Origin: Stramenopiles sp. TOSAG23-2
Taxonomy: Eukaryota; Sar
NCBI GenBank assembly: GCA_900128395.1
Contig: LT649242.1
Span: 1 to 46,303, forward strand
Reading direction: 5' to 3'
Length of the DNA: 46,303 nt
In this document: positions 1,327 through 42,010 of the stretch, piece by piece
Numbering within the stretch: the stretch's first letter is position 1
Layout: each line of letters begins with the position of its first letter
The notes under the pieces: model-generated
Seen by the model: the letters and a program-made list of their open reading frames with translations, nothing else
Told to the model about the DNA's origin: nothing
Databases searched by the model: none
Made by a program: the position numbers and the translations under genes

Positions 1327-4300
1327 TTACTCCATTGCAGAAATTTTGTCATTATCTTCAACAGCTAAAGTTCCAAATTCATCCGCATTTGGGCAAATGA
1401 AATGATCCTCGTCTGGATTGTCAAAACTTACACAATTGCCATCGCGGTTTAAATATGTCGGTTTTAAACATGTACAACATGCTTGAAGGTAATTACCTTC
1501 ATAGGAAGGCAATGCAATTGATTGTAAATACCGTTTGGTAATGTTTTGTGCTTCTATAATTTTTTCCTCAGAACCAAAATTATATTTCTTCTGCTCTATT
1601 TTCAATGCTTGAAGATTATATTCTACATCATCATCTAAAATTTTATTGTTACTTTGTTCATTTACATATTTCATATACAATCTTCCACGTTTAAATGTTT
1701 TCATGATATCCCGGCTATCACCTCCTTTCTTTATTATTGCTATGAATGAATTGACCGATTTTAATTCTTGTATTTGACAATCTGGTACAGTTTTTGATTT
1801 CAAGCTATGGACAACTTTATTTAATTCAAAGTCCAACTGTATATGACATTCATTATGGCAGCATGTTTCATCTTCTTTCGGTGTTCCATCGGGAATAGAA
1901 GGTCCAATAACAGTTACGTGATCCATTTTAAATTCCATCCGGTACTTCATTGATCCCCAATCAATTCGAATAATTTGTTTACTATAAACAACATGTAGGC
2001 ATAATTGATTTTTAAATGTATACACCTTGTTGTCACCATAATGTATTTCTTTTATTTTGAACTTGCGTGAATTTGGCGCTTGCTCATTCATAGGAAGTGA
2101 TGGTATAGTTGCCTGAATTTTCGCAATTAGAGTATCTTTCAAAACTTGTTGCGATGGTAATTCACTTCTGCTTAAAGTTGGTTTTATACACTCATATACG
2201 TCGCAATGTGGATCCATCATCCAAGGTTTAAACGTTGGAAGATCATTAGTTAAATTATCTTTCAATCTTAATATTCCAGCAATAGATTTATCTTCAATTT
2301 TATAATTTTTAATAAAAGTTTCTTTTGTTTGTAAATGAGATACATCTTTTCCAGCATACTTGCATGAGCCATAAATACATGTTCCGCAGCATGTATGAAT
2401 ACGTGATTTGGCATCTGGGTATTTTTTACAAATATCATTGTATAAATAATTTGTCCAAGCTAATAATTTTACTTCCTTTTTCTTGTCAACTATCCATTGA
2501 CTAGTAATACTTAACTGTGATCGACGGTTGTTTGTTGAGGCACGTCTATCTCGTTGTACCATCTGGGCTTTATTGCATTTTGCTGCACGCATTGCACGAT
2601 CTCCAATTCCACCAGCATTATTACTCATATCATATTCTTTATTACTTGAAACATGTTGCATTTCCAAACCTTCACCATCTGTTGCAGTTTTCGCTGTCAT
2701 ATTATCCAGGTAATACTTTTCTGAGTTTGTTTTTATACGATACAGTTGCTGCGATAATTCCACCGTGCCTCGCAATTGATATGGCTTAATTGCTTTATTT
2801 GATTCCATGCAACGGATTAAATCCACCAGGAAACATTGGCTTTTAGCTGCATATGGAACACCATCTTTGAAACGGTTTGCATTCATTGTTTGACAAGTAA
2901 CTGCAAATTCATGATTTACCATTTCTCTCATCCTGATAAAATCGCGTTCTGCATCTGAAAGTTTTGAACGATCAGGTAATGATAAACCACAACAAGCACA
3001 TGTTTCATTAAAAAACGGGGAAGTTAAAAATGGGGAAATTAATGCTAATTTCACAGCATCACCGCCATTAATTTTTAACGCACCATTTTCTTCAAGTGAT
3101 CTACTTTCAACTATGAAAGTATTTATTTTGTGGCATTCCCGTAGATGATCTATGTACTGTTTATACATTTTTTTCCCGCCATACTTGAACATCACCTTAC
3201 ACATAAAAACAAGGTGGTTGTTTGACATTGGTGTCATCACCACATGGAACATGCATGCCGCTGCATCATTTATTAACGGTGGCTTTGGCCGTCCAATATG
3301 CGATACGTAATTTGGTGCCATTGCCTCAACCATGTTTGTTCCTCGCATTAATGTTTCGCCATTGACACTACTTCTTAAAATTATACCCGTAGCTAACGTA
3401 AATGGAATTGGCAAGGTCCATCTTGGTAAAACATTTCTGCCTAATTGAGCATATAATCCTCCGCCATCCAAAATAGTATATAAATGCGGAATTTTCATAA
3501 ATTCAATTGTATATGAACTATCTTCATGATCATTTAACACCAGCGTTTTTCCATTCAAATCTTCTTTTTTAAAAAGTTGATTTATATAAGGTTGTAAATC
3601 TTTGTATTTGTCATTGTCATTTGATAATGCAAATTGTTGAAGATATCTGTGTCCACTAGCTTCTAATAATACAAATTGAATCGTAAATACTGTTTGATTC
3701 ACCGATTTCTGCAACACAACATTTCCAGATGCTAATCGATGTGCATCACTGTTTATTGTATAACAAACTTTAAACGGGCCGTCATCACTTTCATTCTTAT
3801 TAAATTTATCAATTTTATATTTTATTATCTCTAACAGAAGATACCGAAAGCTAGTCTCTTTTTTTAAAACTTCTTTGTAATACTCGAAGCTGCTTGGTCG
3901 TATTGCTAATCCTATAACGTTGTTAAAAACTATCGTCTCTATTTTATAGTCCCGTTGTTGCGCCATTTTTTTTATCGCACTTATTCCACTCACTTTAAAA
4001 TTAAAAGGTAAATACATATTGTGTGTATTATCCACCATTTCTTGTATTATAGGGTGAAAGGCATATTGCCATAGTCTATCAGTCACTTTTACAGCAGTAT
4101 AGATATTCAACATGAACTCATCCATTTCTTCTTTTAATGATTTTTTCCAACTGTTAACTATATACTGATTTAAAACATACGTAAAATATGGTTGAAGTCC
4201 ATAATGTATCAAATCATTACATAAAGCAACTAGTTGATCATTTAAAATCTCAACAGTCTCATTTTCTTCCTCGTCGTCAGTGTCAGTATCCATCATATTA

Positions 4301-5322
4301 AGACTATCATTATTTGCAAAATGTGTCAAATCAGTATCTGTTGCCTCTAACATTAACATCACTATTTTTTCCACAATAGTGGTTCTTTCTCTATTTCTTA
4401 ATTCTGAATACTTTTGCTGCTTCGTTTCACTACCATTACTATTTTTTGTAACGACATCTGTACAAGCATTAATGAAGTTGATTATCTTTTTTCCTTCTAC
4501 GGTTTGTAAGAACGTTGCAATATTACCACCTTTGTTTCCTACATCATCATTGTAAATGAATAAACATTCTTTTCTATTCCCTCCTATGCTTCTAATTCTT
4601 GCTTTGGTAATACAGATTCTAAGTTGATCACATACCTTTTTAAATCCTCCTATATCATTTTGAACCCAACTTTTAATTAATTTGATATCTTCTGATGATA
4701 GTGTTAAAATCATGTTTATCCATTTATAATATTTGCATTTATGATTTAATAATTTTTCAATTATACCTTGTTGCAAATGAGATAAATTCTTGTAATCATC
4801 GGTTGATTTGATTACATCGACAAGTTTATAATAATAGATACCAAAATTTTGGTAATCGTTGTAATGTTTCAAGCATTGTATGCCTAAACACCCAAGCCTA
4901 TCCATCATTTTATCTAAGTAGTTTCTATCTACTGCAGATAGTATAGTATCAACACCTGTATGTGCTTCTGTATCATTGTTACTATGACTAATGCCACTAC
5001 GACGACTTCTTCTTGTAGCTTTGTTTCTTTGATTTACAAGCTGTTGTGTTTTTTTAAACTCTTCAAAATTATCTAAAGTTTTCAATAAATGTAAACAACG
5101 ACGTTCAGCATCTGTTATTACTAATGGTTTTGGTGACATATGTTCACGCATGAACTCATACAGTCGTTTATTGCAAAACAATATACAACTATAATCTTTT
5201 AATCTATCTATTGCATATTTTAAAATAAGCTTTAGATTATCATCCGGTATCTTTTCAAAAGGAAAAGAAAAATCAGTTGCACAACTACCATCATATAAAG
5301 CAGACATTATATCTATATACAA
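1327..5322 (-). CDS. Large unrecognised protein of the TIR element, F-box-like N-terminus
   Basis: A 1331-aa uninterrupted frame and the main gene of the element, so it is the best transposase candidate. Residues ~20-65 (around FPFEKIPDDNLKLILKYAI) resemble an F-box: a Pro-Asp-Asp start, a Leu/Ile-rich helix and a Cys-Asn-Lys-Arg step. Several Cys pairs follow: CACCGL near residue 778, CCGTCIYGSC near 975, CCHNECH near 1155 and CCTCL near 1283. The tail is acidic. I could not assign a DDE, HUH, tyrosine recombinase or polymerase active site. Translation could start at Met1 or Met6. It reads inward from the right TIR. Confidence 0.7.
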   Translation of the reverse strand: MYIDIMSALYDGSCATDFSFPFEKIPDDNLKLILKYAIDRLKDYSCILFCNKRLYEFMREHMSPKPLVITDAERRCLHLLKTLDNFEEFKKTQQLVNQRNKATRRSRRSGISHSNNDTEAHTGVDTILSAVDRNYLDKMMDRLGCLGIQCLKHYNDYQNFGIYYYKLVDVIKSTDDYKNLSHLQQGIIEKLLNHKCKYYKWINMILTLSSEDIKLIKSWVQNDIGGFKKVCDQLRICITKARIRSIGGNRKECLFIYNDDVGNKGGNIATFLQTVEGKKIINFINACTDVVTKNSNGSETKQQKYSELRNRERTTIVEKIVMLMLEATDTDLTHFANNDSLNMMDTDTDDEEENETVEILNDQLVALCNDLIHYGLQPYFTYVLNQYIVNSWKKSLKEEMDEFMLNIYTAVKVTDRLWQYAFHPIIQEMVDNTHNMYLPFNFKVSGISAIKKMAQQRDYKIETIVFNNVIGLAIRPSSFEYYKEVLKKETSFRYLLLEIIKYKIDKFNKNESDDGPFKVCYTINSDAHRLASGNVVLQKSVNQTVFTIQFVLLEASGHRYLQQFALSNDNDKYKDLQPYINQLFKKEDLNGKTLVLNDHEDSSYTIEFMKIPHLYTILDGGGLYAQLGRNVLPRWTLPIPFTLATGIILRSSVNGETLMRGTNMVEAMAPNYVSHIGRPKPPLINDAAACMFHVVMTPMSNNHLVFMCKVMFKYGGKKMYKQYIDHLRECHKINTFIVESRSLEENGALKINGGDAVKLALISPFLTSPFFNETCACCGLSLPDRSKLSDAERDFIRMREMVNHEFAVTCQTMNANRFKDGVPYAAKSQCFLVDLIRCMESNKAIKPYQLRGTVELSQQLYRIKTNSEKYYLDNMTAKTATDGEGLEMQHVSSNKEYDMSNNAGGIGDRAMRAAKCNKAQMVQRDRRASTNNRRSQLSITSQWIVDKKKEVKLLAWTNYLYNDICKKYPDAKSRIHTCCGTCIYGSCKYAGKDVSHLQTKETFIKNYKIEDKSIAGILRLKDNLTNDLPTFKPWMMDPHCDVYECIKPTLSRSELPSQQVLKDTLIAKIQATIPSLPMNEQAPNSRKFKIKEIHYGDNKVYTFKNQLCLHVVYSKQIIRIDWGSMKYRMEFKMDHVTVIGPSIPDGTPKEDETCCHNECHIQLDFELNKVVHSLKSKTVPDCQIQELKSVNSFIAIIKKGGDSRDIMKTFKRGRLYMKYVNEQSNNKILDDDVEYNLQALKIEQKKYNFGSEEKIIEAQNITKRYLQSIALPSYEGNYLQACCTCLKPTYLNRDGNCVSFDNPDEDHFICPNADEFGTLAVEDNDKISAME

Positions 5323-15112: not shown

Positions 15113-18100
15113 TTACTCACTATCTCCGTTTGCTACTTGTACAACAGGAACCCTAACATTAGCAACAGGAACCCATACATTAGCATTGACGGTAGTGTTA
15201 TCTTTTTTGGTACTTTTTTGCACAACTACGCTATTTTTCCGAGGTCTGCCAACCGGATTTTTTTTTACTGGTTTATCATCATTTACACTATTTTTACGAG
15301 GCCTTCCAACAGGATTTTTCTTATTCACACCTGGATTTCCAACTACACTATTCTTCCGAGGTCTTCCCCTGCCATCTTTCTTTTTCTTTTCGCCATCATC
15401 ATCACGCTTGCGTTTCATGCTCATATTAGTACCACTATCAGAATTTGATAGTGTTTCTATTTTCGTAGTATCTAATTTCTGTTTCTTCTTGGAATCGCCA
15501 TCTTTCTCTGATTTTTTTGCTTTTCGCTTTTTTGGCGGTCTTTTGTATGTTTCTTTGTCTAATGCTAAATATTGTTTCAGTTGAACAAAATTCTTTTGTA
15601 ATCTTTCAAACTCTTCCAAGATTACTGGCACATACCTTCTATTACTTATAACGTTTTCTACCGTGCTTAATTTGCCAGGGTACGGAGGTGGAAACTGTGG
15701 AATAGCTGGTGTTGTTGCAATTGAAATTTGTTCAGGAGAAGTACCTGTTATCATTAGAGCATTTCCAGTACCATTGGCGTTATTAATAGTCGTTGATGTC
15801 GTCACGGCAGCTGTTGCTGACGTGGCATGTGGTTCTGTATTATTTTGTCCATTACTTCCGGCTTTTTCTCCTACTACTACCGTCTCCCCTGGACTTACGA
15901 CTTGCTGCTTTTCACTACTTTCTTGCATTTCTTCGCTATTTTTGCTTTGTCTACGAATATCAATTTTCTTTGCTATGTGCCACTCATCCCATTCCTTGAA
16001 CCATCTTTCCATATTAGCGTTAAGGTTCCGAATGGATTTTTTATATTTATCTGCTTTTTTAAGAACTTTCTTAAATGGGTTGTCTAAATCTTTCAAAACT
16101 TTCCATTTTTTAGTTAATCGATTAAATTGGTTTTGTTTGCGTAAAATTGTATCGACTTTTCTTATGCAATGTTGTAAATTTTCCACTCGCAAGAGTTCAT
16201 AAGGTTTCAAAAGCTTTAAGCTCTCAGAAGCCCATTTGAGTATTTCCACGCCTGTAACAATTAGATTCTGTACATTTTGACTTTCGTTACTTAAATGCCT
16301 AAAAGCTGTTGTGTTCCCCATTAATAATTCATCGATCTCCACATCACCAATTTTTCCACGAGTAGCAACATATTTTAATAAATCATCCCCAGCGACACTC
16401 TTTTCTACGTCATAATATTCTGTGTCAAACTGTGCATCATCAGACGGAATTAAACGCAAAAATTCACGCCTAGCAGTTTTGACTAGGTTTAAAAATTGCT
16501 TAACTTCATCAATTCTCTTCTCTTCGTTATATTTGGCTTTTTTTTCTGGTGGATAGTGCATATCAAGGGTCTTAAGTAGCCACCCGGTAACTTCATGTGA
16601 AATCATACCCATTCCTTTAATCTTGTGATAGGTTGGCGATTCATTTGTAGTAGTGGTGGTGGTGGTAGTAGTAGTCGTGGTCGTCGTCGTTGTTGTTGTT
16701 GTTGTCGTAGCAAGGGTAGATGCCATAGACTGTCCACCCGCACGCGATACTTCCATTTGCTTACTGTTTAAATACATAGACAACGAATCGGTTATTTGTT
16801 GAATAACGTTGGATACGCCTATACGAATAGTACAACGTGGACAGTAATATTTAAAATCATCAGTAAGGTTAGCGACAGGAACATCCATACAATCAGGATG
16901 AAACCAATTGCCACATTTCTCACAACCAAACATATCGCCATCTGTAGTGTTTCCGCATAAACACCACGGGTGTACAATGTCCATTATTTGCGGCATCAAG
17001 TCAAGGTGGCAATGTATTTTCATTCCTTGGTCACGAAGTTTTCGCAAATGATCTAAGGAGGCATTGCCTTGTTGAATGCCCGCATTTCGAACTTCTTGGT
17101 CCCAATTGTACCCATCTTCTATTTCTTTATCAATCTTTTCTACCAATGGTAAATATATAGCAATTTTCTCGTGTTGTTTCAACAGTCCCCGCAGTTTCGT
17201 TAGGGTTAATTTCTCTTCAGTCAAAGCTCTTTGCATCTTTTCGTTTAAAGTTTTTCCTTTCCTAGCTTCGCTTTTTAATCTTGTCAACGCCCCTTTTGGT
17301 AGAAATGGCACCGTTGCAGCTTTTTTCAACAGCTCACCCAACTTTTCCATAGTTGGTTTTGCCTCTCCGCTTTTTAATTTAAAGAAATTTTCGATTTCTT
17401 TTGAGCCTATTTGTGCTTTTAAAGATTTATTTCTTAATGCTTCCGCTGTTTGGACATGGCGTATAATCCTCCACCCATCATATCCTTTGCTTGATTCAGA
17501 AATTCCTGGAATGTACAGAGGTTCCTCGTCATCTTTCTTCAACGTCTCGTAACGTTTTAAGACTCTGCTAACTTCTTGGATTTTTCCACCACTGTCAGCT
17601 TCTAGCAATGGTGCCACACTCCGAAGCCATTTTAAAATGTTAACACGATATGACAACAGCTTTACTTCTGGTGTTGAGTATGCAAGACTAGTTCGTGCTT
17701 CTTCTAATAAATTTTCAAAAATTTCTAAATATTCTTCTTCTATGGTGACTATTTTTCCGCTGATAATATTATTATCACCGTTGGTATTGCTTGAACTATC
17801 CGTATCGATATCCTTTGCCTGTTCCGATTCCTCCTTTAGCGCTTCTTCCATGTCTTTATCGCTTTGCATAAGTTGCTCATCTACTTTCTTGATAAAAATT
17901 TCAGCTATTTCCACTTCTTTTGTGATTACTTTCAATTCATTATAAACTTCGGTGGCAAGCGTGTTGGCTTGAAAGCAAAGGTCCGTGATCTCTTTCTTTG
18001 TAGGTTTTCGTCCAACCTTTGATTTGTTGCGTTGCTGTTTTGAAAAACTATTCCTTGCCCGCGAAATCCATTCGCTTGACTTTTCAAATTCATTAATTAT

Positions 18101-20708
18101 TGGCTCTGTATTTACAATCTCGACTTGTGTTTTTTTGACGTCTTCTATTATCTTCTCTAAAACTTTTAGCTCGATTGGTGCTATTGACATCACATTCGAA
18201 GAGGAATGAGAATTGCGTAAAGGGAAAACTGGATTAGAGGATCTATATTTTATAATACTTCCAATATTTTCCACAATTTCATTTACCGTATTTTGCAATG
18301 CTACAGAATCGTTCTTTAATTGTTTTAGCTTTTCTAGTTCATCTTCTATATCAACAGTAATATCGTCACCCTCTTCAATCAAAATTAACAACGAATCAAT
18401 GGTCACTGGTACTTGGTTTTTCTTATGCGCCCCTTTCCCCGGGGCTTTTAAAGCTAATTCGGTCCGTTCGAGCCATTCTAAGCAAGACTTTATAGTATTT
18501 CTCATCTCCTTTTCTTTTTCTATTCGGTATTCCTCTGCTACCATATTCTCTGGAAGCAAAGCTCGTATGGTTGGTATTTCAGCAAACATATCTTGCAATG
18601 TCTCTATATTTTCAAATGGTTCTTCTGTTAAACATTTTGTTGCTCTTGCAGCCCAATCGCGGCGTTTTATTTCTGTTTCTAAAACTTTTAGAAGATCCAT
18701 TTCAACAGGTATATCCACCCCCTCGACATATAAACTATGCAAATCCTCTTTCGTGCTCTTTTTGTCGTCAATAGCTTCCTGCGCCTCTTCCATCCATTCA
18801 TTTGCAGTTTCGACTAAATCACGAATATCCTCAACCACGCCTTTATTTTTGCTATTATTATCCATCATTAGAAAATCTTCAGCTTCATCCAAAAGTGTAC
18901 TTAACATTTTTAAGTTTGCTTTCTTTTTACCTTCCCCGCCACGTCTTGATGTTTTGTTCGGTATGGCGTCTTTGAACTTTTTTACCCAAGTAGTCGCCTC
19001 GCTCAAAGCTTTTGTCAACTTTGTCGAATGGACACTTACATCGATAGGTAAGTGTTTTGATTCTTGTAAAAGTGCGCTAAAAACTTTTAAAGACCCACGA
19101 TTGCCGCTACTTGATGATGGCGTCCCGGCACCATTATTACCATCACTGGCACCATCTTTACTATTACTCGTTTTATTACTTTTTAAATTATTTACACGTT
19201 TTATCCATTCCTGCGTAGACAATAATGCATTTTTTACAATTGCCAATTCATCAGTTTCAATTCCAATTGACTCCACTTGCTCAACTAAATCCTTGACTAC
19301 TTCTAATGCCGGTTTTCTATTAGAGGTACCATTTCCATCTGCCAGACGCTGTTTATTTGAAATTTGGAATTCCCAAAATTCTGGGAAAAGTCGTTGAATA
19401 CGTGTGCTTTGTGCCACAGCCTCGGTTAAACGCATTTTTAATTCATCAACTTGTGGAACTCTTACTGGAAAATTTTGGCTATGTTTTAACATGGTTTGAA
19501 ATACTTCGATTCTTATACATTTATCGCCACTAATCATACCTTCATATTTTTCGATCCATTCATTAATATCGCTTAAAATATTTTTAACGTGGTTAATATC
19601 GTCCAAGAAGCCCTTTAACGATTTGGCATTTTGCATCAATTTCTCCAACTCTTCCAAACTGTACAATTGTTTATTCATACCGGACAACATATCATGTGCA
19701 TGTGCCGTCCATTGATTTACCATCATGATGCGGTCTTTCAATTTTTGTTGTTGATTTATTGAGCTTTTTACAAAACCTTCTTGTGACGAGCCGGGTACTA
19801 ATGTAACTTGAGGCAAAGTTTTAGCTTCGATTAATAACATTTTTAAATCGTTAAATCGAAATTGGTTATTATTGTTGTTGTCACTACTATTTAATAGATT
19901 CCTAGCACGCGTGTTCCACGCGGTCCATATTCTCTTAATTTCCTTATCTGTCAATTTCGTGTTGGATAACCTGCCATTGCTATTTTTTTTAACGTTGCTT
20001 TTGTCCATCTTTTTCAATGCAATATTCGCATTGTCACTACGTACACCACGTCTTAATTTTTCCTCTTCTTCAAAATTTTTACGTAAATATCGAACTTCTT
20101 GTCCTGCGCCAACGCTTGCCGCTAATTGAAATGCTGCACGATTTATATTGTATTTACTATTATGTAACATTTCAAGTGCTTTTTCATTTTCAAGTAACGA
20201 GTTGGTCAACGCATTTTTATCAATAGCCCGCTTCACGGAATGTAATGGCTTCGAAAGTGCTTTTGAAATTTCTAAATATCTAGTCACTTCAGCTGCATTG
20301 ACATCACTTCCTTTTCCACCTTCAGCGCCTTGCCATATACAATTAGCTTCCAACAAAGCCATCTTCTCTTCCCTTGTTTTCGGCTTATTTGTCGGGTCTT
20401 CGCGATACGAGCTAACAACAGCTTGGTATGCATTATCATCAACTCTCGGTCGCTTACGCTTGTAACGTTTTCCAGCGACTTCAAAATGATTCGCGCTATC
20501 ACGACCACTTGTTTCAGCTATGTTATTACCACTACTAGGTGAGGAGTGCGGTGTTTTTTTAGAACCCATTAAAGAACCTGAACGATCCCGCGGTGACAAC
20601 GTCATACGGCTATTATTGGACATAAAATTTGAGGATGGTGTTTTCTTAATTTTTAAAGACGGTGATAAGTAGCCAAGATTATTTTGCATTGTCGCCGTGG
20701 TTGTCGTT

Positions 20709-20747
<39 letters not shown>

Positions 20748-20800
20748 TTATCACTGCTACTTGATGACGGGGTATTTAATTTATCATTTTGATTATTCAT
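15113..20800 (-). CDS. Giant chromatin protein: ELM2-like, PLU-1-like repeats, PHD finger, AT-hooks
   Basis: A single 1895-aa frame. An N-terminal Ser/Thr tract (~17-35) is followed by an ELM2-like region (~115-205, from PRVDDNAYQAVV to KYNINRAAFQLA). Most of the protein is repeated helical units with W..A pairs and long Leu-rich helices, as in the PLU-1 region of KDM5 (JARID1) proteins. A PHD finger of C4HC3 type sits at about 1275-1320 (WCLCGN, FGCEKCGNWFHPDC, YYCPRC). A second poly-Thr tract lies at ~1367-1390. Three AT-hooks (GRPRKNS) lie near 1810-1860, next to basic nuclear-localisation-like runs. There is no JmjC, JmjN or ARID domain, so it should read histones and bind AT-rich DNA without demethylating. 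Confidence 0.8.
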
Positions 20801-33839: not shown

Positions 33840-36539
33840 ATGGCGTTATGGGAAGATAATAAATTCACTTCAAATAATGCAGCGTTATATGAGGAAGAAG
33901 GAAAAGTTGCTGAGTATGATATTGGAACAAATGGTAGTCCAACAGAAGTATATTGGTTAAGACCAAACGATGAATTTCCAACTGGTAATAATTTAGCAGA
34001 TCCACAATTATTTGTCGATGGGGATGAAGCTGGAGATGTCAGTGAAGGTAGTATGGATGATGCGTGGTTTATAGGTGCATTAGCAGCTGTTGCAGCACAC
34101 CCATTAGCACTAGTACAAAATTTATTTGTTGATGAGGATGAAGATGCATGGGCACGTGAAGGTCGATTAGCGTGTAGATTTTACAAAGATGGCGAGTGGA
34201 TCGAAGTTCCTGTAGATACAAAGATACCAATGAAATTAAAAGAAAAGGAGGAAACATGTGTTCCACTGTACGGTCGGTGCCGTAATCCAGAGGAACAGTG
34301 GATACAAATGGTAGAAAAAGCATATGCAAAGTTACATGGAACTTACAACGCTTTATCTGGTGGGCATGTTGGTGATGCATTAGTCGATTTAACTGGGGGT
34401 AGTGCACAAACAATTGTCTTGACAGATGACCCCGTTGCAGAAATGGTAAGCAAAGGCCGTCTATGGCCACGGATACAACGTTATTTGGATTATTATTATG
34501 TAATAACATGTGAAAAAACTGTTAGTAGTGGCATGGAAGATATAAAAGATGGTGAAGTTGATTTAGTAACTGGTTTGAAGCAAAGTAGGGCATATAGCAT
34601 TTTATGCGCAAAAGAAATCGGTGCTTTGCGGTTCATCAAGATACGCAATCCATGGGGAGAAGATGCTGCATGGCGTGGTGAATGGAGTGATGGTTCCCCA
34701 AAATGGGAGGAACATCCTGAAGTAGAACAAGCCATGAAAGAAGACACGGAGATTGGATTTGATCGTACTAATAAAGATGGAACATTTTGGATGGTATGGG
34801 AAGATTTTGTTAGACAATTTGATACATTATGCATGTGCCGTTTATTCGGTGAAGAATTCAATCAATATTTAATACAAGGTGAATGGGAAGGTCGTACAGC
34901 AGCTGGCGCTCATAAAATTATACGTGATTCCATGGCAACTACGAAAAAAGGGAAAAAGAATACGGGAAATGTGAAACGATCGCCAGAGAAAAAAACGGCC
35001 GATGAGGAAAAAAATGATGGTGGGCCACGTAAACGTAATGTTCATATTTCCAATCGCCGTGGTACATTTACGGAAACGGATGGTGATCCACGTTGGTTCA
35101 ACAATCCACAATATCGACTAGTTGTTGAGAAAGAAACAGAATGTTACATATCTTTAATGCAAAAAGATAGACGCGTTTTAAGACATGGCGATTCTCATTA
35201 CTCCATAGGTTTCGTCGTATTGCGACAAAAGAAAAATGAGAAAGGACGTATATGGGAACAAGATTTGAAATATACAATCACTGACAGTAGTAAATCACGT
35301 TTTGCGGGGTTGTTACCACGTAGAGAAGTGACAAAAGCAAGTATTGTTCTATCGCCAAAATATCATTATATCATAGTTCCGTACACAAGAAATTGGGGAG
35401 TTGAGATGCCATATACAATGAGAATATTCACACGCCAAGAAATGAAAGTGGAAGCATTGCCTGAATTATTTTGTAAAACATATGAAGGTAGTTGGACAAT
35501 TGGCGAGGAATTGGATACTGCAGGTGGCCCATTGACTATTAAAGGCACGGAGAAAGAAAATTTAAAATTTTGCCAAAATCCACAATATTTAGTACGTTTA
35601 CCAAAAACGAAAGATAGAGTCAGTTTGAAAGTAGTCTTAAAGCGTACCGATAAAAATGGTGTTGTGAAAGGGAAACGTGAAGGTAAAACGAATTTCCCAG
35701 GATTAGTCATTGTGAAGCCAGATCCACCACCAGCTACAGGGAAAAAGAAACGAATTGAAATCACAAATTTCATGGGCGAACCATTATCACCACACAAACG
35801 TGCGGAAGCAAAGGCAAAAGCAGCACGTATAGCACGTGGGGAAGAGATTATAGAGGAAGATAAAACAGTTGGTAAAGTTTCTCGTAAATTATCAATAGCA
35901 AAAGGTGACTGGTGTTGCAATAGTGATTTTTCTGATCGTGAAGCTGCTACGTGTACATTGCCAACGTTGATGCAAATATGGTGTGAAAATGGAATGATTA
36001 TTGTTCCCGTTTTACAACAACCTGGAATGGAAGGTTCATACATGTTGGAAGTTTTTAGTGAAATTCCAATATCGATGGAGGAAATGCCACAAACAAGAGA
36101 GAAAACAGTGGCATCGTCTTGGACTGAAAATTTAAGTGGTGGGATGCATATGAATGAGAATTGGAAAAGAAATCCAAAATTTAGTTTGGAATTGTTTACA
36201 GATAGGCCTGCAAAAGTTGATATTACATTATCAAGACCAGAAGATAGATGGGGTAGACGTGCAGTTAAAGATAGTGTTGGTACGATGATGGGTTTTTATT
36301 GCGTTTCAGGAACAAGAATTACGAAAGAACCAACAGGAATTTTTTATGATGGTAAACCATGGACACAAACACCATATATGCCAGTACATAAAATATCGAC
36401 ACCACCAAATTTTATGTTACAACCATTGAATGAAGGTGACGTTTATACTATCTTGCCAACAACGTTTGAACCGGATAGGCATGGTCCATTTTTTGTAACT
36501 GTGAAAGCTGATTGTGATTTTAGATTAACCACAAAATGA
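33840..36539 (+). CDS. Calpain-fold pseudoprotease with three C2-like domains
   Basis: An 899-aa protein. Residues ~30-345 are a calpain protease core: LVDLTGG (181-187), IKIRNPWGE (266-274), WSDGSPKW, and a GTFWMVWEDFVRQFD end. The catalytic Cys position is Ala75 (DDAWFIGAL where active calpains have GDCWFLAAL), and the catalytic His is Arg250 (GLKQSRAYSI). Only the Asn (270) of the triad remains, so it cannot work as a Cys protease. After a basic linker come three beta-rich calpain domain-III (C2-like) units with W..NP(Q/K) starts near 417, 545 and 762. Inactive calpains in animals and trypanosomatids act as cytoskeletal or signalling scaffolds; a similar role is inferred. Confidence 0.88.
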   Translation: MALWEDNKFTSNNAALYEEEGKVAEYDIGTNGSPTEVYWLRPNDEFPTGNNLADPQLFVDGDEAGDVSEGSMDDAWFIGALAAVAAHPLALVQNLFVDEDEDAWAREGRLACRFYKDGEWIEVPVDTKIPMKLKEKEETCVPLYGRCRNPEEQWIQMVEKAYAKLHGTYNALSGGHVGDALVDLTGGSAQTIVLTDDPVAEMVSKGRLWPRIQRYLDYYYVITCEKTVSSGMEDIKDGEVDLVTGLKQSRAYSILCAKEIGALRFIKIRNPWGEDAAWRGEWSDGSPKWEEHPEVEQAMKEDTEIGFDRTNKDGTFWMVWEDFVRQFDTLCMCRLFGEEFNQYLIQGEWEGRTAAGAHKIIRDSMATTKKGKKNTGNVKRSPEKKTADEEKNDGGPRKRNVHISNRRGTFTETDGDPRWFNNPQYRLVVEKETECYISLMQKDRRVLRHGDSHYSIGFVVLRQKKNEKGRIWEQDLKYTITDSSKSRFAGLLPRREVTKASIVLSPKYHYIIVPYTRNWGVEMPYTMRIFTRQEMKVEALPELFCKTYEGSWTIGEELDTAGGPLTIKGTEKENLKFCQNPQYLVRLPKTKDRVSLKVVLKRTDKNGVVKGKREGKTNFPGLVIVKPDPPPATGKKKRIEITNFMGEPLSPHKRAEAKAKAARIARGEEIIEEDKTVGKVSRKLSIAKGDWCCNSDFSDREAATCTLPTLMQIWCENGMIIVPVLQQPGMEGSYMLEVFSEIPISMEEMPQTREKTVASSWTENLSGGMHMNENWKRNPKFSLELFTDRPAKVDITLSRPEDRWGRRAVKDSVGTMMGFYCVSGTRITKEPTGIFYDGKPWTQTPYMPVHKISTPPNFMLQPLNEGDVYTILPTTFEPDRHGPFFVTVKADCDFRLTTK

Positions 36540-36935: not shown

Positions 36936-39900
36936 ATGGCCAAATTTTTATCAGAACAAGATTTTATCTTTCATCGAATTGATGGTAGTAGTGATAGTGA
37001 CAATGCAATAATAAAAGATACTGCATTAATATTAAATCAAGAGTGGCCAAATATCAAATTACAATCAAGAATTGAATGGTTATCTCGGAGTTCGATTAAT
37101 AACTTACCAGCATCTTGGGTGTTATTAAATACTAATAATAAAGCAATCGCGCATGTGCGACTTTCAACTAAGTACAAAGAAGAACAGAGTATAAGCAATA
37201 ACAACAATAACGATAACAATGTCAAGAAAAATTTACGTGAAAATATTTCTGTAATTGCGACGTCTGTTGTTGTTGCGAAACAACTTCGTGGCCTTGGCGT
37301 AGGTAAAATTTTGTTAAAAAAAATGCATGAATGCTGTTTTGACTTGGGTTTTGGCAGAGTAGTATTATGGACAACCGATGCTGTCGGGTTTTATTTAAAA
37401 TCAGGATATAAAAAAATTCAGCCGTTGAAAAAGAATATCCCGAATGTAATTGCAAAACATTTTTCAGATACATCATTAGATAATTTACGCAATGTCTTAA
37501 TGAAAAAGCGAAAAAGTATCAATAATAATAATAACAATAATAAAACAAACCAAAAAATAGCTACAAGCGAATCAGTAAGTGAAATTTTAGACGGTGATTC
37601 AAATTTAGAAAATAACACTTGGCTTGCTTTTCGAGTTCGAAGTTCCTTTAAACCATTTTATCGTAATAAAAAAGCTATGGAAGAAGAAATGAATCATTTA
37701 TTAGAGAGTGGGCATTTCACTAATAAACAAACTAATAATGATGTTGACGAATTGAAAACTACATACATTAATCATGTCCCATTTGAAAATCAAATTGGTC
37801 CTATGTGTGGTATCTCGGCATTAAATTGTATGAAAGAATATTTTAAGAACACAGTCAAAGCAAAGAATTTGGATATTAATTCAATACAGGTTGATAAGAT
37901 TATTATAAAATCTAAAGATGCTGATGGTAATAATATTGTAATGGAAAAATACAAATCAAATAAAAGTGGATGGGGGAAATCATGTTCAACAATGTCATCA
38001 TCATCATTATCATCACAGCAACAACAACAACAACAACAACCTATCTCAATTTTAGAACAAGCGCAGAAAGAAAAGATTACAACAGACGGGGAATTATTTG
38101 ATATTAAAAAAATTGGTAAATTGGCAGCAATGGATGTTTGTGATTTAAATTCAGTTGTTGTTGAACGTATGTCATTACGTCTTATCATAAATTTATTGTT
38201 AAATCGATTGCCTGTATTAATCTGCTACGACAGATCGTCATCTTCATCTATTTATGGTGTCTCCATGAAAAAAGGTAAAGCGGCGCATTGGGCTCTTATT
38301 GTTGGTTTCATACTAACAAAACAAATGAGGGATAGCAATAGTCATATGTTAAATACTAGCAATAGTGATAATAATGGAAAATACAAATATGTCTGGTTAG
38401 ATGAACATAAAACAAATATCCAACAACATGCCATTCATTATGCTGTTGATGATGATTGTAACGATGATATCAACAATGATCCAATACTGATATTGCAGCA
38501 TGGTATGTCTCAAAAAGTATTATTTTGCCCTTGGAGTAAGTTAAAAGCATCAAACTTACAAGTTGAGGAATATGCAAGAACCTTATCAGAAGATAATTCA
38601 CTGCGCTATAAAAAGTTAGAATGGAAACATATTTCAAAACCAACCTTGAAAAATTGTATTTTATTTCTTTATCCAACATTATCAGAAACATTGCAAAAAG
38701 AGAAATGGTCAAATGTCCTAGATGCGTATTGCAAGACAAATTATTACATAGATATAACATCCTCGCAAGCAATTAATCAAGTCAACGTTATGATAAATCA
38801 TGAATTACCAAAACAATTGTTAGATTGGTTATTTACATATACAAATTCATATCGTACAGAATGGTTCATAGCTACTGCATTTAATCCAAATTCAAAGCCA
38901 TGCGACGTTGCCACGAATTTACAAGAAAACGATGTACTAGAGAAATACATTATTGAAAAAAAGTGGTTATATTTAAAAGGTATAGGCCAAGATCCAAACA
39001 TGGAATGGCCAGGTGAAAATCACTTTTTAATATGTGCTACTTATATGGATGCAATGGAAATTATGGCTCGTTTTCATCAAAACGCAGTCGTTGTATCCTC
39101 ATCTGCCATAGTAAATGATCAAATGATTCAAAAATTACCAAATCTTCATGCAAAATTATTATTTAATAATGGTTACGTCTACCCACCCCACAAAGAGGAG
39201 GATGATAAAGAAGCGCACATAGAGGATATACTACCTCCAAATAATACAAGAAGAAGAAGAAGAAGACAACGTACTCGGCATGAACCACTAATTGAGAATA
39301 AACGCCCTATTAATTTAGTATTAATCGGTGGAGGTGTTGCAAGTATAAGTTGCATTGATACTATTCTTGACATTGCAAATTTAAATGAGTCGAATGAAGC
39401 TTCAAGTATTGAAATATATTTAATTACCCCGTCAGAGAATATACAAAGATTGAAAAAAAAACGGCGATTATCAAGTTATTTAAAAGAATATGAGATAAAA
39501 TATGAAAATGCTGCGATATTAGCAAATAAAGGTGTTAAGGTAATTCAAGATACTGCAAAAGGTTTGAATATGGAAGAAAAGCAAGTTTTGTTGGAGTCAG
39601 AAAATATCGTATCATTTGATAAATTATTTATTGGTACAGGCGCTTTGCCGAATCTACTTTTTCGTTCCCCATTCTGTCTTAGTGTACGAGACAAAGCAAG
39701 TGTAATCGATCTAGGTAAGCGTGTTAGCACTTCTACACATGTTGTCATTGTTGGAAATGGTGCTATTGCAATGGAAATGGTTGAAGCCTTGCGTGGTACT
39801 ATGATCGACATAACTTGGGTAGTAAAAGACAGTTACGTTGGCAATACATTTTTTGATCAGAGTGCATCTGCATTTTTTCAATCAAAAATATTTGAAAATA

Positions 39901-41033
39901 GAAGACGATCTGATTGTCATAAATATGCAATTCCACTATCAAATGCAAATCATTTTCAGTGGCAAATACTATCACATGATGATGTTAAGAATAAGGCAGA
40001 TGATGAGCAAATGTTTGTTGATGAAGATGAATTGAACAATGCAATAAATATAGAAAACAACGTATTGTTTGGACATTCACTAGGACCGAGCTGGTTAAAT
40101 GTTTTGAATCAAAATATAAAAGATAATAAAGTAGACAAGAATGATAATAATTTTACTGACGATGATAACAATAATGCTGGAATGGAAAATAGTATTAGTA
40201 GTCTTCCAAAATTGAATGTAGTTTATAATGCAACTATTGCAAAATATGCAGATACATCTATGGATGACACAAATGAATGGAATTTGCACATTTGCTTAGG
40301 AAATGGAAGTATTTATTGTTGCGATTATCTTATTTCTGCTACAGGGGTACTTCCAAATACCCATTTCGTTCGTAGTAGTAATGTTAATGACAATATTTAT
40401 TTCGCAGAAGATGGTGGTATACCAGTAAAAAGTAACTCTATGCAAACGTTCTTTTCAAATGATGTATATGCTGCAGGTGATTGCTGTACAATCGTAGTTG
40501 AAAGGGAGGAGGAAGAGGAGGATAGCAACCATTGGTTTCAAATGCGGCTATGGGACCAAGCAATGTATACAGGGCAAAAAGCTGGGATTTCTATGATGTC
40601 TTTTGAAAATAAATTTTACGATTCGTTAAATTTTGAATTATTTACACATGTAACAGAGGCATTTGGATACAAAGTTGTGTTGTTGGGGCGTTACAATGGT
40701 CAAGGTATGAGTGAAGAGTATATCAATGCACTGCAGTCTATTTCACTTGAAGCAATAGAATCATCCTCTCCATCGTCTTTAAATTTAAATAAGTATAAAT
40801 CAACCGCAATGTCGACATTGAAAAACGATAATGATGTTGAAATTTTCTTACGATGTACACCTGGTACTGAATATATTAAAGTTGTAGCGGTAAATAATAA
40901 AGTTTGTGGGGCTATATTAATTGGCGAAACAGATTTAGAAGAGACATTCGAAAATTTAATTTTATCACAAATAAATATCAAAGGTATGGATTTATTAGAT
41001 CCTAATATTGATTTAGAGGATTATTTTGATTGA
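36936..41033 (+). CDS. Triple fusion: NAA80-like acetyltransferase, ACTMAP-like protease, PYROXD1-like flavoprotein
   Basis: A 1365-aa uninterrupted frame. Part 1 (~25-170) is a GNAT fold like NAA80: LNQEWP, HVRLS (73-77), VVVAKQLRGLGVGKIL with the acetyl-CoA loop RGLGVG (118-123), and DAVGFYLKSGY. Part 2 (~276-560) matches ACTMAP/C19orf54: VPFENQIGPMCGISALN with Cys291, AHWALIVGF with His451, LQHGMSQ and WSKLKASNLQ. A middle region (~565-770) is unrecognised. Part 3 (~790-1365) is a full PYROXD1: FAD site IGGGVAS (797-803), NAD(P)H site VIVGNGAIAMEM (937-948), GNTFFDQSA, AAGDC (1179-1183), and an ending GETDLEETFENLIL...LDPNIDLEDYFD. ACTMAP trims and NAA80 acetylates the actin N-terminus. 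The added oxidoreductase implies a redox link. Confidence 0.9.
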   Translation: MAKFLSEQDFIFHRIDGSSDSDNAIIKDTALILNQEWPNIKLQSRIEWLSRSSINNLPASWVLLNTNNKAIAHVRLSTKYKEEQSISNNNNNDNNVKKNLRENISVIATSVVVAKQLRGLGVGKILLKKMHECCFDLGFGRVVLWTTDAVGFYLKSGYKKIQPLKKNIPNVIAKHFSDTSLDNLRNVLMKKRKSINNNNNNNKTNQKIATSESVSEILDGDSNLENNTWLAFRVRSSFKPFYRNKKAMEEEMNHLLESGHFTNKQTNNDVDELKTTYINHVPFENQIGPMCGISALNCMKEYFKNTVKAKNLDINSIQVDKIIIKSKDADGNNIVMEKYKSNKSGWGKSCSTMSSSSLSSQQQQQQQQPISILEQAQKEKITTDGELFDIKKIGKLAAMDVCDLNSVVVERMSLRLIINLLLNRLPVLICYDRSSSSSIYGVSMKKGKAAHWALIVGFILTKQMRDSNSHMLNTSNSDNNGKYKYVWLDEHKTNIQQHAIHYAVDDDCNDDINNDPILILQHGMSQKVLFCPWSKLKASNLQVEEYARTLSEDNSLRYKKLEWKHISKPTLKNCILFLYPTLSETLQKEKWSNVLDAYCKTNYYIDITSSQAINQVNVMINHELPKQLLDWLFTYTNSYRTEWFIATAFNPNSKPCDVATNLQENDVLEKYIIEKKWLYLKGIGQDPNMEWPGENHFLICATYMDAMEIMARFHQNAVVVSSSAIVNDQMIQKLPNLHAKLLFNNGYVYPPHKEEDDKEAHIEDILPPNNTRRRRRRQRTRHEPLIENKRPINLVLIGGGVASISCIDTILDIANLNESNEASSIEIYLITPSENIQRLKKKRRLSSYLKEYEIKYENAAILANKGVKVIQDTAKGLNMEEKQVLLESENIVSFDKLFIGTGALPNLLFRSPFCLSVRDKASVIDLGKRVSTSTHVVIVGNGAIAMEMVEALRGTMIDITWVVKDSYVGNTFFDQSASAFFQSKIFENRRRSDCHKYAIPLSNANHFQWQILSHDDVKNKADDEQMFVDEDELNNAINIENNVLFGHSLGPSWLNVLNQNIKDNKVDKNDNNFTDDDNNNAGMENSISSLPKLNVVYNATIAKYADTSMDDTNEWNLHICLGNGSIYCCDYLISATGVLPNTHFVRSSNVNDNIYFAEDGGIPVKSNSMQTFFSNDVYAAGDCCTIVVEREEEEEDSNHWFQMRLWDQAMYTGQKAGISMMSFENKFYDSLNFELFTHVTEAFGYKVVLLGRYNGQGMSEEYINALQSISLEAIESSSPSSLNLNKYKSTAMSTLKNDNDVEIFLRCTPGTEYIKVVAVNNKVCGAILIGETDLEETFENLILSQINIKGMDLLDPNIDLEDYFD

Positions 41034-41509: not shown

Positions 41510-42010
41510 TTAACTCACAATGTCCATTACAAGTGCAACACCTGCTAATGTCCATCTAGCTGGTGGCGATTTCGTTTTCAACTGTGCAACAAATACAAAT
41601 GTCGGGCCACGTTGTAACGTTTTGTAAACTGGGCATTGATAAATATTTGAAGTGGATGCTTTATCGCTTGCGATAGAACGGCAATTAATAATTGGCATTT
41701 GACAGAACATCTCACGTGGTGTTGCTTTCGTAATTGCACCATCATTTGGTGCCCATTTTGCACCTTCCATATATAAGCCATGTAAGTAAGCGCCATCGCG
41801 GGATCTGCTATCGATTTCCTCGGCATTCATTCTTTTCGTCATTTCTGTTAGAGTTATCAATTTATCCAATGCATCCCCAGTTCTTTGTGCTGTCATTTGT
41901 TTAATAGCAGTCAAAAACGATTGTGGATTTGAAAATCCGGCTATCCATGTAACTACAGGAATATCAGCTGGATTCCCAGTCCAATCAACCAATTGTTCGT
42001 ATCTTGTATC
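41510..42010 (-). pseudogene. Orphan C-terminal fragment of an axonemal dynein heavy chain
   Basis: The frame is open from 42010 (just after a TAA) to the stop at 41510. It encodes the very end of a dynein heavy chain: WIAGFSNPQSFLTAIKQMTA, then GAYLHGLYMEGAKW, YQCPVYKTLQRGPTFVFVAQL and ARWTLAGVALVM. There is no ATG, and the 594 bp upstream hold no more dynein sequence before a gene on the other strand. A full heavy chain has over 4000 residues. It is either a truncated pseudogene or a 3' exon whose upstream exons lie beyond an unusually long, gene-bearing intron. The retained frame and motifs suggest a recent break. Confidence 0.75.

Follow-up and report, generated by a model that had tools for sequence, protein, structure and literature searches.

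Why would counterparts of NAA80 and ACTMAP, which process the actin N-terminus, be made as one protein with a counterpart of PYROXD1, a flavoprotein that protects the RNA ligase RTCB? The question is raised by a single gene on contig LT649242.1 (assembly GCA_900128395.1, Stramenopiles sp. TOSAG23-2), the whole 46,303-nucleotide length of which was analysed and is called the window here. The gene encodes a quadruple fusion in which NAA80-like, ACTMAP-like, DUF3293 and PYROXD1 domains follow one another (Table 1). An earlier note on this DNA had described a triple fusion, and the NAA80, ACTMAP and PYROXD1 parts that it named are all present, but it had overlooked the DUF3293 domain found by Pfam; with this domain counted, the fusion is four-part rather than three-part. 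The explanation that we favour, with somewhat better than even confidence, is that two known jobs, actin N-terminal processing and RTCB protection, are carried on one chain.

Architecture and conservation of the chain

The gene is one continuous frame of 1365 codons, as had been noted before. The in-frame upstream stop nearest to its ATG lies 16 codons away, with no further ATG in between. Four families score above their cut-offs in the Pfam scan: Acetyltransf_1, ACTMAP-like_C (PF21646), DUF3293 (PF11697) and Pyr_redox_2. A whole-protein search of the source assembly (17.45 Mb in 793 contigs) returned this copy and no second one.

Could such a chain be an artefact of assembly or gene modelling? 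The source assembly is fragmented and very incomplete, as this explanation would have it, but the frame is uninterrupted, and the same four domains stand on one chain in two database proteins: P0001 from ENA (1365 amino acids (aa), 98% identity) and P0002 from JGI (1304 aa, 55% identity), the latter confirmed by a Pfam rescan. Because these two relatives share the architecture, chance or an assembly join error, which the earlier note had named as a possible undoing of its claim, is excluded or very unlikely, and the artefact explanation comes close to being refuted. Each protein search scored about 8000 candidates, those sharing most words with the query, which makes the range of the fusion reported here a lower bound; by our guess, poly-N and poly-Q words probably crowded some of these searches.

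Compared with P0002, the window protein shows 56-74% identity in the domain blocks and 18-38% in linkers and inserts; motif 2 of PYROXD1 reaches 79%, and one loop after it 47%. We read the retention of domains while linkers drift as a sign that every domain of the single chain is under selection. A different outcome would be that the chain is a polyprotein, cut in its variable linkers, possibly by its own protease, into NAA80-ACTMAP and PYROXD1. The linkers are indeed low-complexity or basic and fast-changing, and each domain looks complete alone, but inspection by eye revealed no conserved cleavage motif, and the literature, in the portions available, has ACTMAP taking off the acetylated residue at the actin N-terminus, not cutting within chains. 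Such processing therefore seems to us quite unlikely. The Arg-rich linker ahead of PYROXD1 could possibly be a nuclear signal, which would fit RTCB better than actin, or a plain linker.

Table 1. Features of the fusion gene, in window coordinates; aa positions refer to the encoded chain.
Feature	Position	Strand	Basis or remark
Single open reading frame, NAA80-ACTMAP-DUF3293-PYROXD1 fusion	36936..41033	+	1365 aa from ATG
NAA80-like GNAT domain, aa 12-193	36969..37514	+	Acetyltransf_1 3.6e-7 (aa 46-158)
Retained contacts to the actin peptide, W37 for fly W36 and R45 for fly R43	37044..37070	+	alignment of 4 sequences; contacts as named in the available part of PMC10318143
ACTMAP-like cysteine protease, aa 227-582	37614..38681	+	PF21646 at aa 353-459, 7.7e-17, 62.3 bits (cut-off 27)
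Cys291 in GPMCG, presumed nucleophile	37806..37808	+	invariant in aligned relatives
His451 in AAHW, presumed catalytic base	38286..38288	+	invariant in aligned relatives
DUF3293 domain, aa 588-724, Pfam core 647-718	38697..39107	+	PF11697, E 4e-12, 47 bits (cut-off 25)
Arg-rich linker ahead of PYROXD1, aa 772-782	39249..39281	+	P0002 linker likewise basic
PYROXD1 flavoprotein, aa 793-1365	39312..41030	+	human PYROXD1 structures 8orj/6zk7, 2.7e-75
Loop-2 motif GHSLGPSW, aa 1046-1053, W1053 = human W239	40071..40094	+	motif and spacing
C-terminal RTCB-binding tail IDLEDYFD, aa 1358-1365	41007..41030	+	human IDIEDYFD, I493-D500

A predicted actin-processing half and a putative RTCB-binding half

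Is the first domain an NAA80, or simply another GNAT? In a sequence search of the PDB its matches included chain CG8481 (fly, 5wjd; 7.8e-8), which we take to be fly NAA80, and human NAA80 (1.5e-3). A profile built from four sequences (A9: window, P0002, P0018 and P0020) and run against all PDB chains matched fly NAA80 at 2.5e-19 and human NAA80 at 1.8e-18, whereas the next GNAT followed at 1.9e-5, which gives NAA80 a lead of 13 orders of magnitude. The NAA80 matches begin at profile position 23 and the others at position 51 or later, among the best 60 of 106 rows. The assignment of this part to the NAA80 type, rather than to GNATs in general, is thus borne out. The acetyl-coenzyme A (acetyl-CoA) binding loop of such enzymes is of the type R/Q-x-x-G-x-G, and the RGLGVG loop already picked out in the earlier note lies at aa 118-123.

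The peptide site is retained in part. The available text of PMC10318143 names W36, R38 and R43 as the key peptide contacts of fly NAA80, has the side chain of S124 touching the inhibitor, and names T125 too. The equivalents of W36 and R43 are invariant in all four sequences of the profile, and T125 aligns to a kept residue, T146, in an alignment read by eye and offset so as to match W36, R38 and R43. NAA80/NatH and the window domain have the WP..R element and the acetyl-CoA loop in common, NAA80 being the best PDB match by far. They differ in that the domain here is part of a larger chain and in two contact positions weighed below; moreover, the literature, where it could be consulted, calls NAA80 an animal enzyme. 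Domain 1 appears NAA80-like in its ancestry and in part of its peptide site, and is predicted to acetylate acidic actin N-termini.

The second domain had been assigned to ACTMAP, and this is upheld by a PF21646 match well over its cut-off and by an invariant Cys/His pair. Cys291 and His451, which had been reported as intact, do not vary in alignments A5 (n = 8) and A10 (n = 7), and neither do DGE-F, YD, H522-S525 and SN-Q. PMC13367750, in the part available, gives C132 as the nucleophile of human ACTMAP; Cys291 was assigned from the sequences of relatives, without direct alignment to human C132. A search of the PDB with the A10 profile of this domain gave no matching chain up to E 10. The likeness to ACTMAP (C19orf54) thus lies in PF21646 and in the presumed catalytic pair, while the window domain differs in sitting behind NAA80 and in carrying low-complexity inserts, the human sequence standing outside the alignment. 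Domain 2 is ACTMAP-type by these family-level marks, with removal of the acetylated first residue of actin as its predicted activity.

The pair of NAA80 and ACTMAP domains also occurs in shorter proteins. P0018 from ENA (568 aa, 43% identity) carries both, without a DUF3293 call by Pfam; its C-terminal residues align with the start of DUF3293, and the P0018 chain may therefore be incomplete. P0020 (495 aa, 27% identity) has the GNAT and ACTMAP in the same order and stops at the end of ACTMAP, on a contig of at most 1912 bases, so that further domains may follow. P0021 (321 aa) starts with a segment like the NAA80-to-ACTMAP junction and may be a truncated model of the pair, P0022 is ACTMAP by itself, and P0019 resembles a fragment of a P0002-like protein. 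The protein searches brought up two four-part chains (P0001 and P0002) and two NAA80-ACTMAP chains (P0018 and P0020). Given P0020, P0021 and P0022, the pair may be older or more widespread than the four-part chain. None of the five matches of one protein search was a named animal ACTMAP.

These domains bear on the age of the pathway. Actin processing by NAA80 and ACTMAP is described as unique to animals in the portions available of PMC10318143 and PMC11465159. The host of the present chain is, as its small and compact assembly suggests, probably not an animal, and actin N-terminal maturation by ACTMAP and NAA80 may, judging from these domains, not be an animal invention. If the host is indeed non-animal, a conserved two-enzyme chain would shift the pathway deeper in time. 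The fusion would also offer a ready-made single-chain enzyme for studies of mechanism and structure.

The C-terminal part is a complete PYROXD1, as had been claimed: besides the structure match in Table 1, it shares 170 of 398 aligned residues with the human chain of 8orj, and Pyr_redox_2 covers aa 793-985 plus a second stretch (Pfam, 3.2e-19). Both dinucleotide sites had been called intact, and they nearly are. The contact list for flavin adenine dinucleotide (FAD) and nicotinamide adenine dinucleotide (NAD) was taken from the available part of PMC12263435, which names 12 FAD contacts in human PYROXD1. Nine of these can be aligned, the other three falling in unaligned loop 2, and seven of the nine are identical to human, with A43P and V87A as the differences; four of five NAD contacts are identical, and the fifth is changed (G157A).

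The C-terminal tail of PYROXD1 enters the active site of RTCB, and both binding and protection are lost when longer stretches are removed from the C-terminus, according to the same portion of PMC12263435. The chain in the window terminates in such a tail, at its exact C-terminus and with seven of eight residues identical to human (I495L). Since PYROXD1 comes last in the fusion, the tail stays free, and it has been retained despite three domains in front. Among the matches listed, 15 of 17 proteins end in an RTCB-type tail; in the fungal proteins P0009 (Catenaria) and P0010 (Allomyces) the sequence continues beyond the tail position. In loop 2, W1053 was matched to human W239 by LGPxW and by the spacing S233-A234-W239, human loop 2 being outside the alignment, and this spacing agrees with SALGPDW in P0005 (Taenia) and P0007 (Hymenolepis). 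The part resembles PYROXD1, then, in the tail, in the LGPxW of motif 2 and in most FAD and NAD contacts, and differs from it in the three substitutions, in the 790 residues of other domains that precede it and in a diverged loop 1.

As a separate observation, the tapeworm PYROXD1 proteins P0005 (799 aa) and P0007 (817 aa) carry an extra Pfam domain, PF07856, and may be fused genes or gene-model joins.

Probably two jobs on one chain

What would a chain of this kind do? Its architecture, conservation and residues are observed; from them we infer each activity, as well as actin as the substrate and RTCB as the client. By homology, the ACTMAP-type protease (Cys291/His451) would remove the acetylated first residue of new actin, and the NAA80-type domain of the same chain would then acetylate the newly exposed N-terminus, so that both maturation steps would sit in one enzyme. 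The PYROXD1 part would bind FAD and NAD(P)H, as residue-level conservation suggests, and, when reduced, would insert its free tail in the active site of RTCB, shielding the RTCB cysteine from oxidation. Co-expression or localisation, rather than a role of PYROXD1 in actin processing, is the most likely reason for joining the two halves.

The host assembly contributes to this picture. PYROXD1 and the tRNA ligase complex have coevolved (PMC10653391, in part available), and archease, the cofactor of RTCB, catalyses RTCB guanylylation (PMC12263435, likewise); archease is encoded in the assembly (2.2e-32). A search for RLL/RTRAF had no match in the assembly and none in the control genomes either, and is uninformative.

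Several points weigh against the two-job explanation. On the actin side, the fly R38 contact is not kept (its place is taken by N39 in the window and by K, R and E in P0002, P0018 and P0020, respectively), and S124 aligns to W145 in the alignment read by eye, the fly contacts being those named in the available text of PMC10318143; with both changes, N-terminal specificity may differ. Conventional actin was not found in the very incomplete assembly. On the RTCB side, loop 1 (human P45-R76), highly conserved with an invariant motif according to the part of PMC12263435 available, is clearly diverged in the window, as it is in P0002, and the search of this same assembly did not find RtcB. A T4-type RNA ligase is present, with no further Pfam domain in the 957-aa part scanned, and RTCB need therefore not be the sole ligase.

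How much do the two absences count? Eukaryotes normally have eight cytosolic CCT subunits, and the CCT family is represented in the assembly by one clear match and one weak one. There is likewise no clear EF-1alpha in the assembly, the best match standing at E 1.8e-7 with 30% identity. Because CCT, EF-1alpha and conventional actin are poorly represented or missing, the absences of RtcB and actin carry little weight, and it is the presences that count. The idea that RTCB is absent and PYROXD1 has a new job was dropped, given the incompleteness of the assembly and the presence of archease.

The actin-family matches in the assembly resemble ARP2, ARP1 and further actin-related proteins, named by eye without a family model. 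One unusual actin-related protein has its actin-like domain (PF00022) within a 1044-aa open reading frame (L011, 25-3159, + strand) that contains long low-complexity stretches and extends beyond the domain in both directions.

The unkept R38 and S124 contacts, together with the missing host actin whose N-terminus might have been compared, would also suit domains 1 and 2 that come from other GNAT and papain-like families, unrelated to actin. The profile match, however, is specific to NAA80, PF21646 is well over its cut-off, and NAA80 and ACTMAP are joined in P0018 and P0020 also. The NAA80 and PF21646 placements thus hold in the profile checks that the earlier note had proposed against such unrelated families, and we consider this origin decidedly improbable.

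Could PYROXD1, perhaps with DUF3293, instead serve actin maturation, for example by NAD(P)H-dependent shielding of the ACTMAP cysteine? The chain would then be a redox-controlled actin maturation enzyme. The fusion has been kept at 55% identity, ACTMAP and RTCB both rely on a reactive cysteine (as far as the available parts of the sources go), and loop 1 of PYROXD1 differs from human, all of which would suit such coupling. But PYROXD1 retains its RTCB tail and motif 2, and archease is present, so that the old job seems intact; P0020 has NAA80-ACTMAP without PYROXD1, albeit on a short contig; and the three protein searches, each scoring about 8000 candidates, found no other association of PYROXD1 with ACTMAP. 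We regard this coupling as unlikely. By gene-fusion logic PYROXD1 had been put forward as a candidate partner of actin N-terminal processing, a proposal that finds no support here, with a terminal tail retained and archease in the assembly. Retention of the RTCB tail and of motif 2 led us to reject, as the principal reading, gene-fusion logic as proof of an actin role, and we keep to two jobs on one chain.

DUF3293, novelty and neighbouring genes

The third domain, DUF3293, is a conserved, uncharacterised module of bacterial type, as its relatives suggest. A tblastn search against plasmids for DUF3293 yielded 10 records (nine Paraburkholderia and one Caballeronia), and one plasmid-encoded relative scores 81 bits with PF11697. 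In a scan of genome contigs, 38 of 68 stretches proved to be relatives of that plasmid-encoded protein. When the window domain was aligned with 25 of these 38 bacterial relatives (A8), ten columns were invariant in all 26 sequences: Y598, T647, N650, P651, N661, G684, E694, Q715, N716 and A717. The alignment extends over about 137 aa, the full domain span. The bacterial proteins are small and separate (about 140 aa where measured), whereas the domain here is internal to a eukaryotic chain. No recurring partner, adjacent or further, appeared among 10 nearby open reading frames from 8 of the 38 bacterial loci; a PDB sequence search for the domain gave nothing credible (best E 0.29), and DUF3293 is mentioned nowhere in the literature collection searched. 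The fusion offers this uncharacterised domain a possible functional context.

Is the fusion itself new? The component parts are known and the four-part architecture is new. PYROXD1 and ACTMAP occur together in no paper of that collection, and no title in the literature on ACTMAP/NAA80 or on PYROXD1 fusions concerned such a protein, the original ACTMAP and PYROXD1-RTCB papers lying outside the search. The available part of PMC13367750, a chemistry paper with the terms NAA80, ACTMAP and 'fusion', contained no account of such a fused protein. A two-part NAA80-ACTMAP fusion may have been reported before.

Among the prokaryotic NCBIfam models listed for the chain none reached its cut-off, the best for the flavoprotein being CoA-disulfide reductase (65.2 bits vs 578.8) and for the GNAT part ArsN2 (32.6 bits vs a cut-off of 125). 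In IMG/VR, 66 stretches fit the search pattern and none was a relative of the fusion.

Further genes in the window include a 1331-aa open reading frame at 1327-5322 (- strand), with zero Pfam matches at E 0.001. Directly upstream of the fusion gene lies a calpain-family cysteine protease with domain III (33840-36539, + strand), and just downstream a dynein heavy chain C-terminal domain (41510-41992, - strand). An 1895-aa open reading frame at 15113-20800 (- strand) has PLU-1 and PHD domains and presumably resembles a chromatin protein of the histone-demethylase type.

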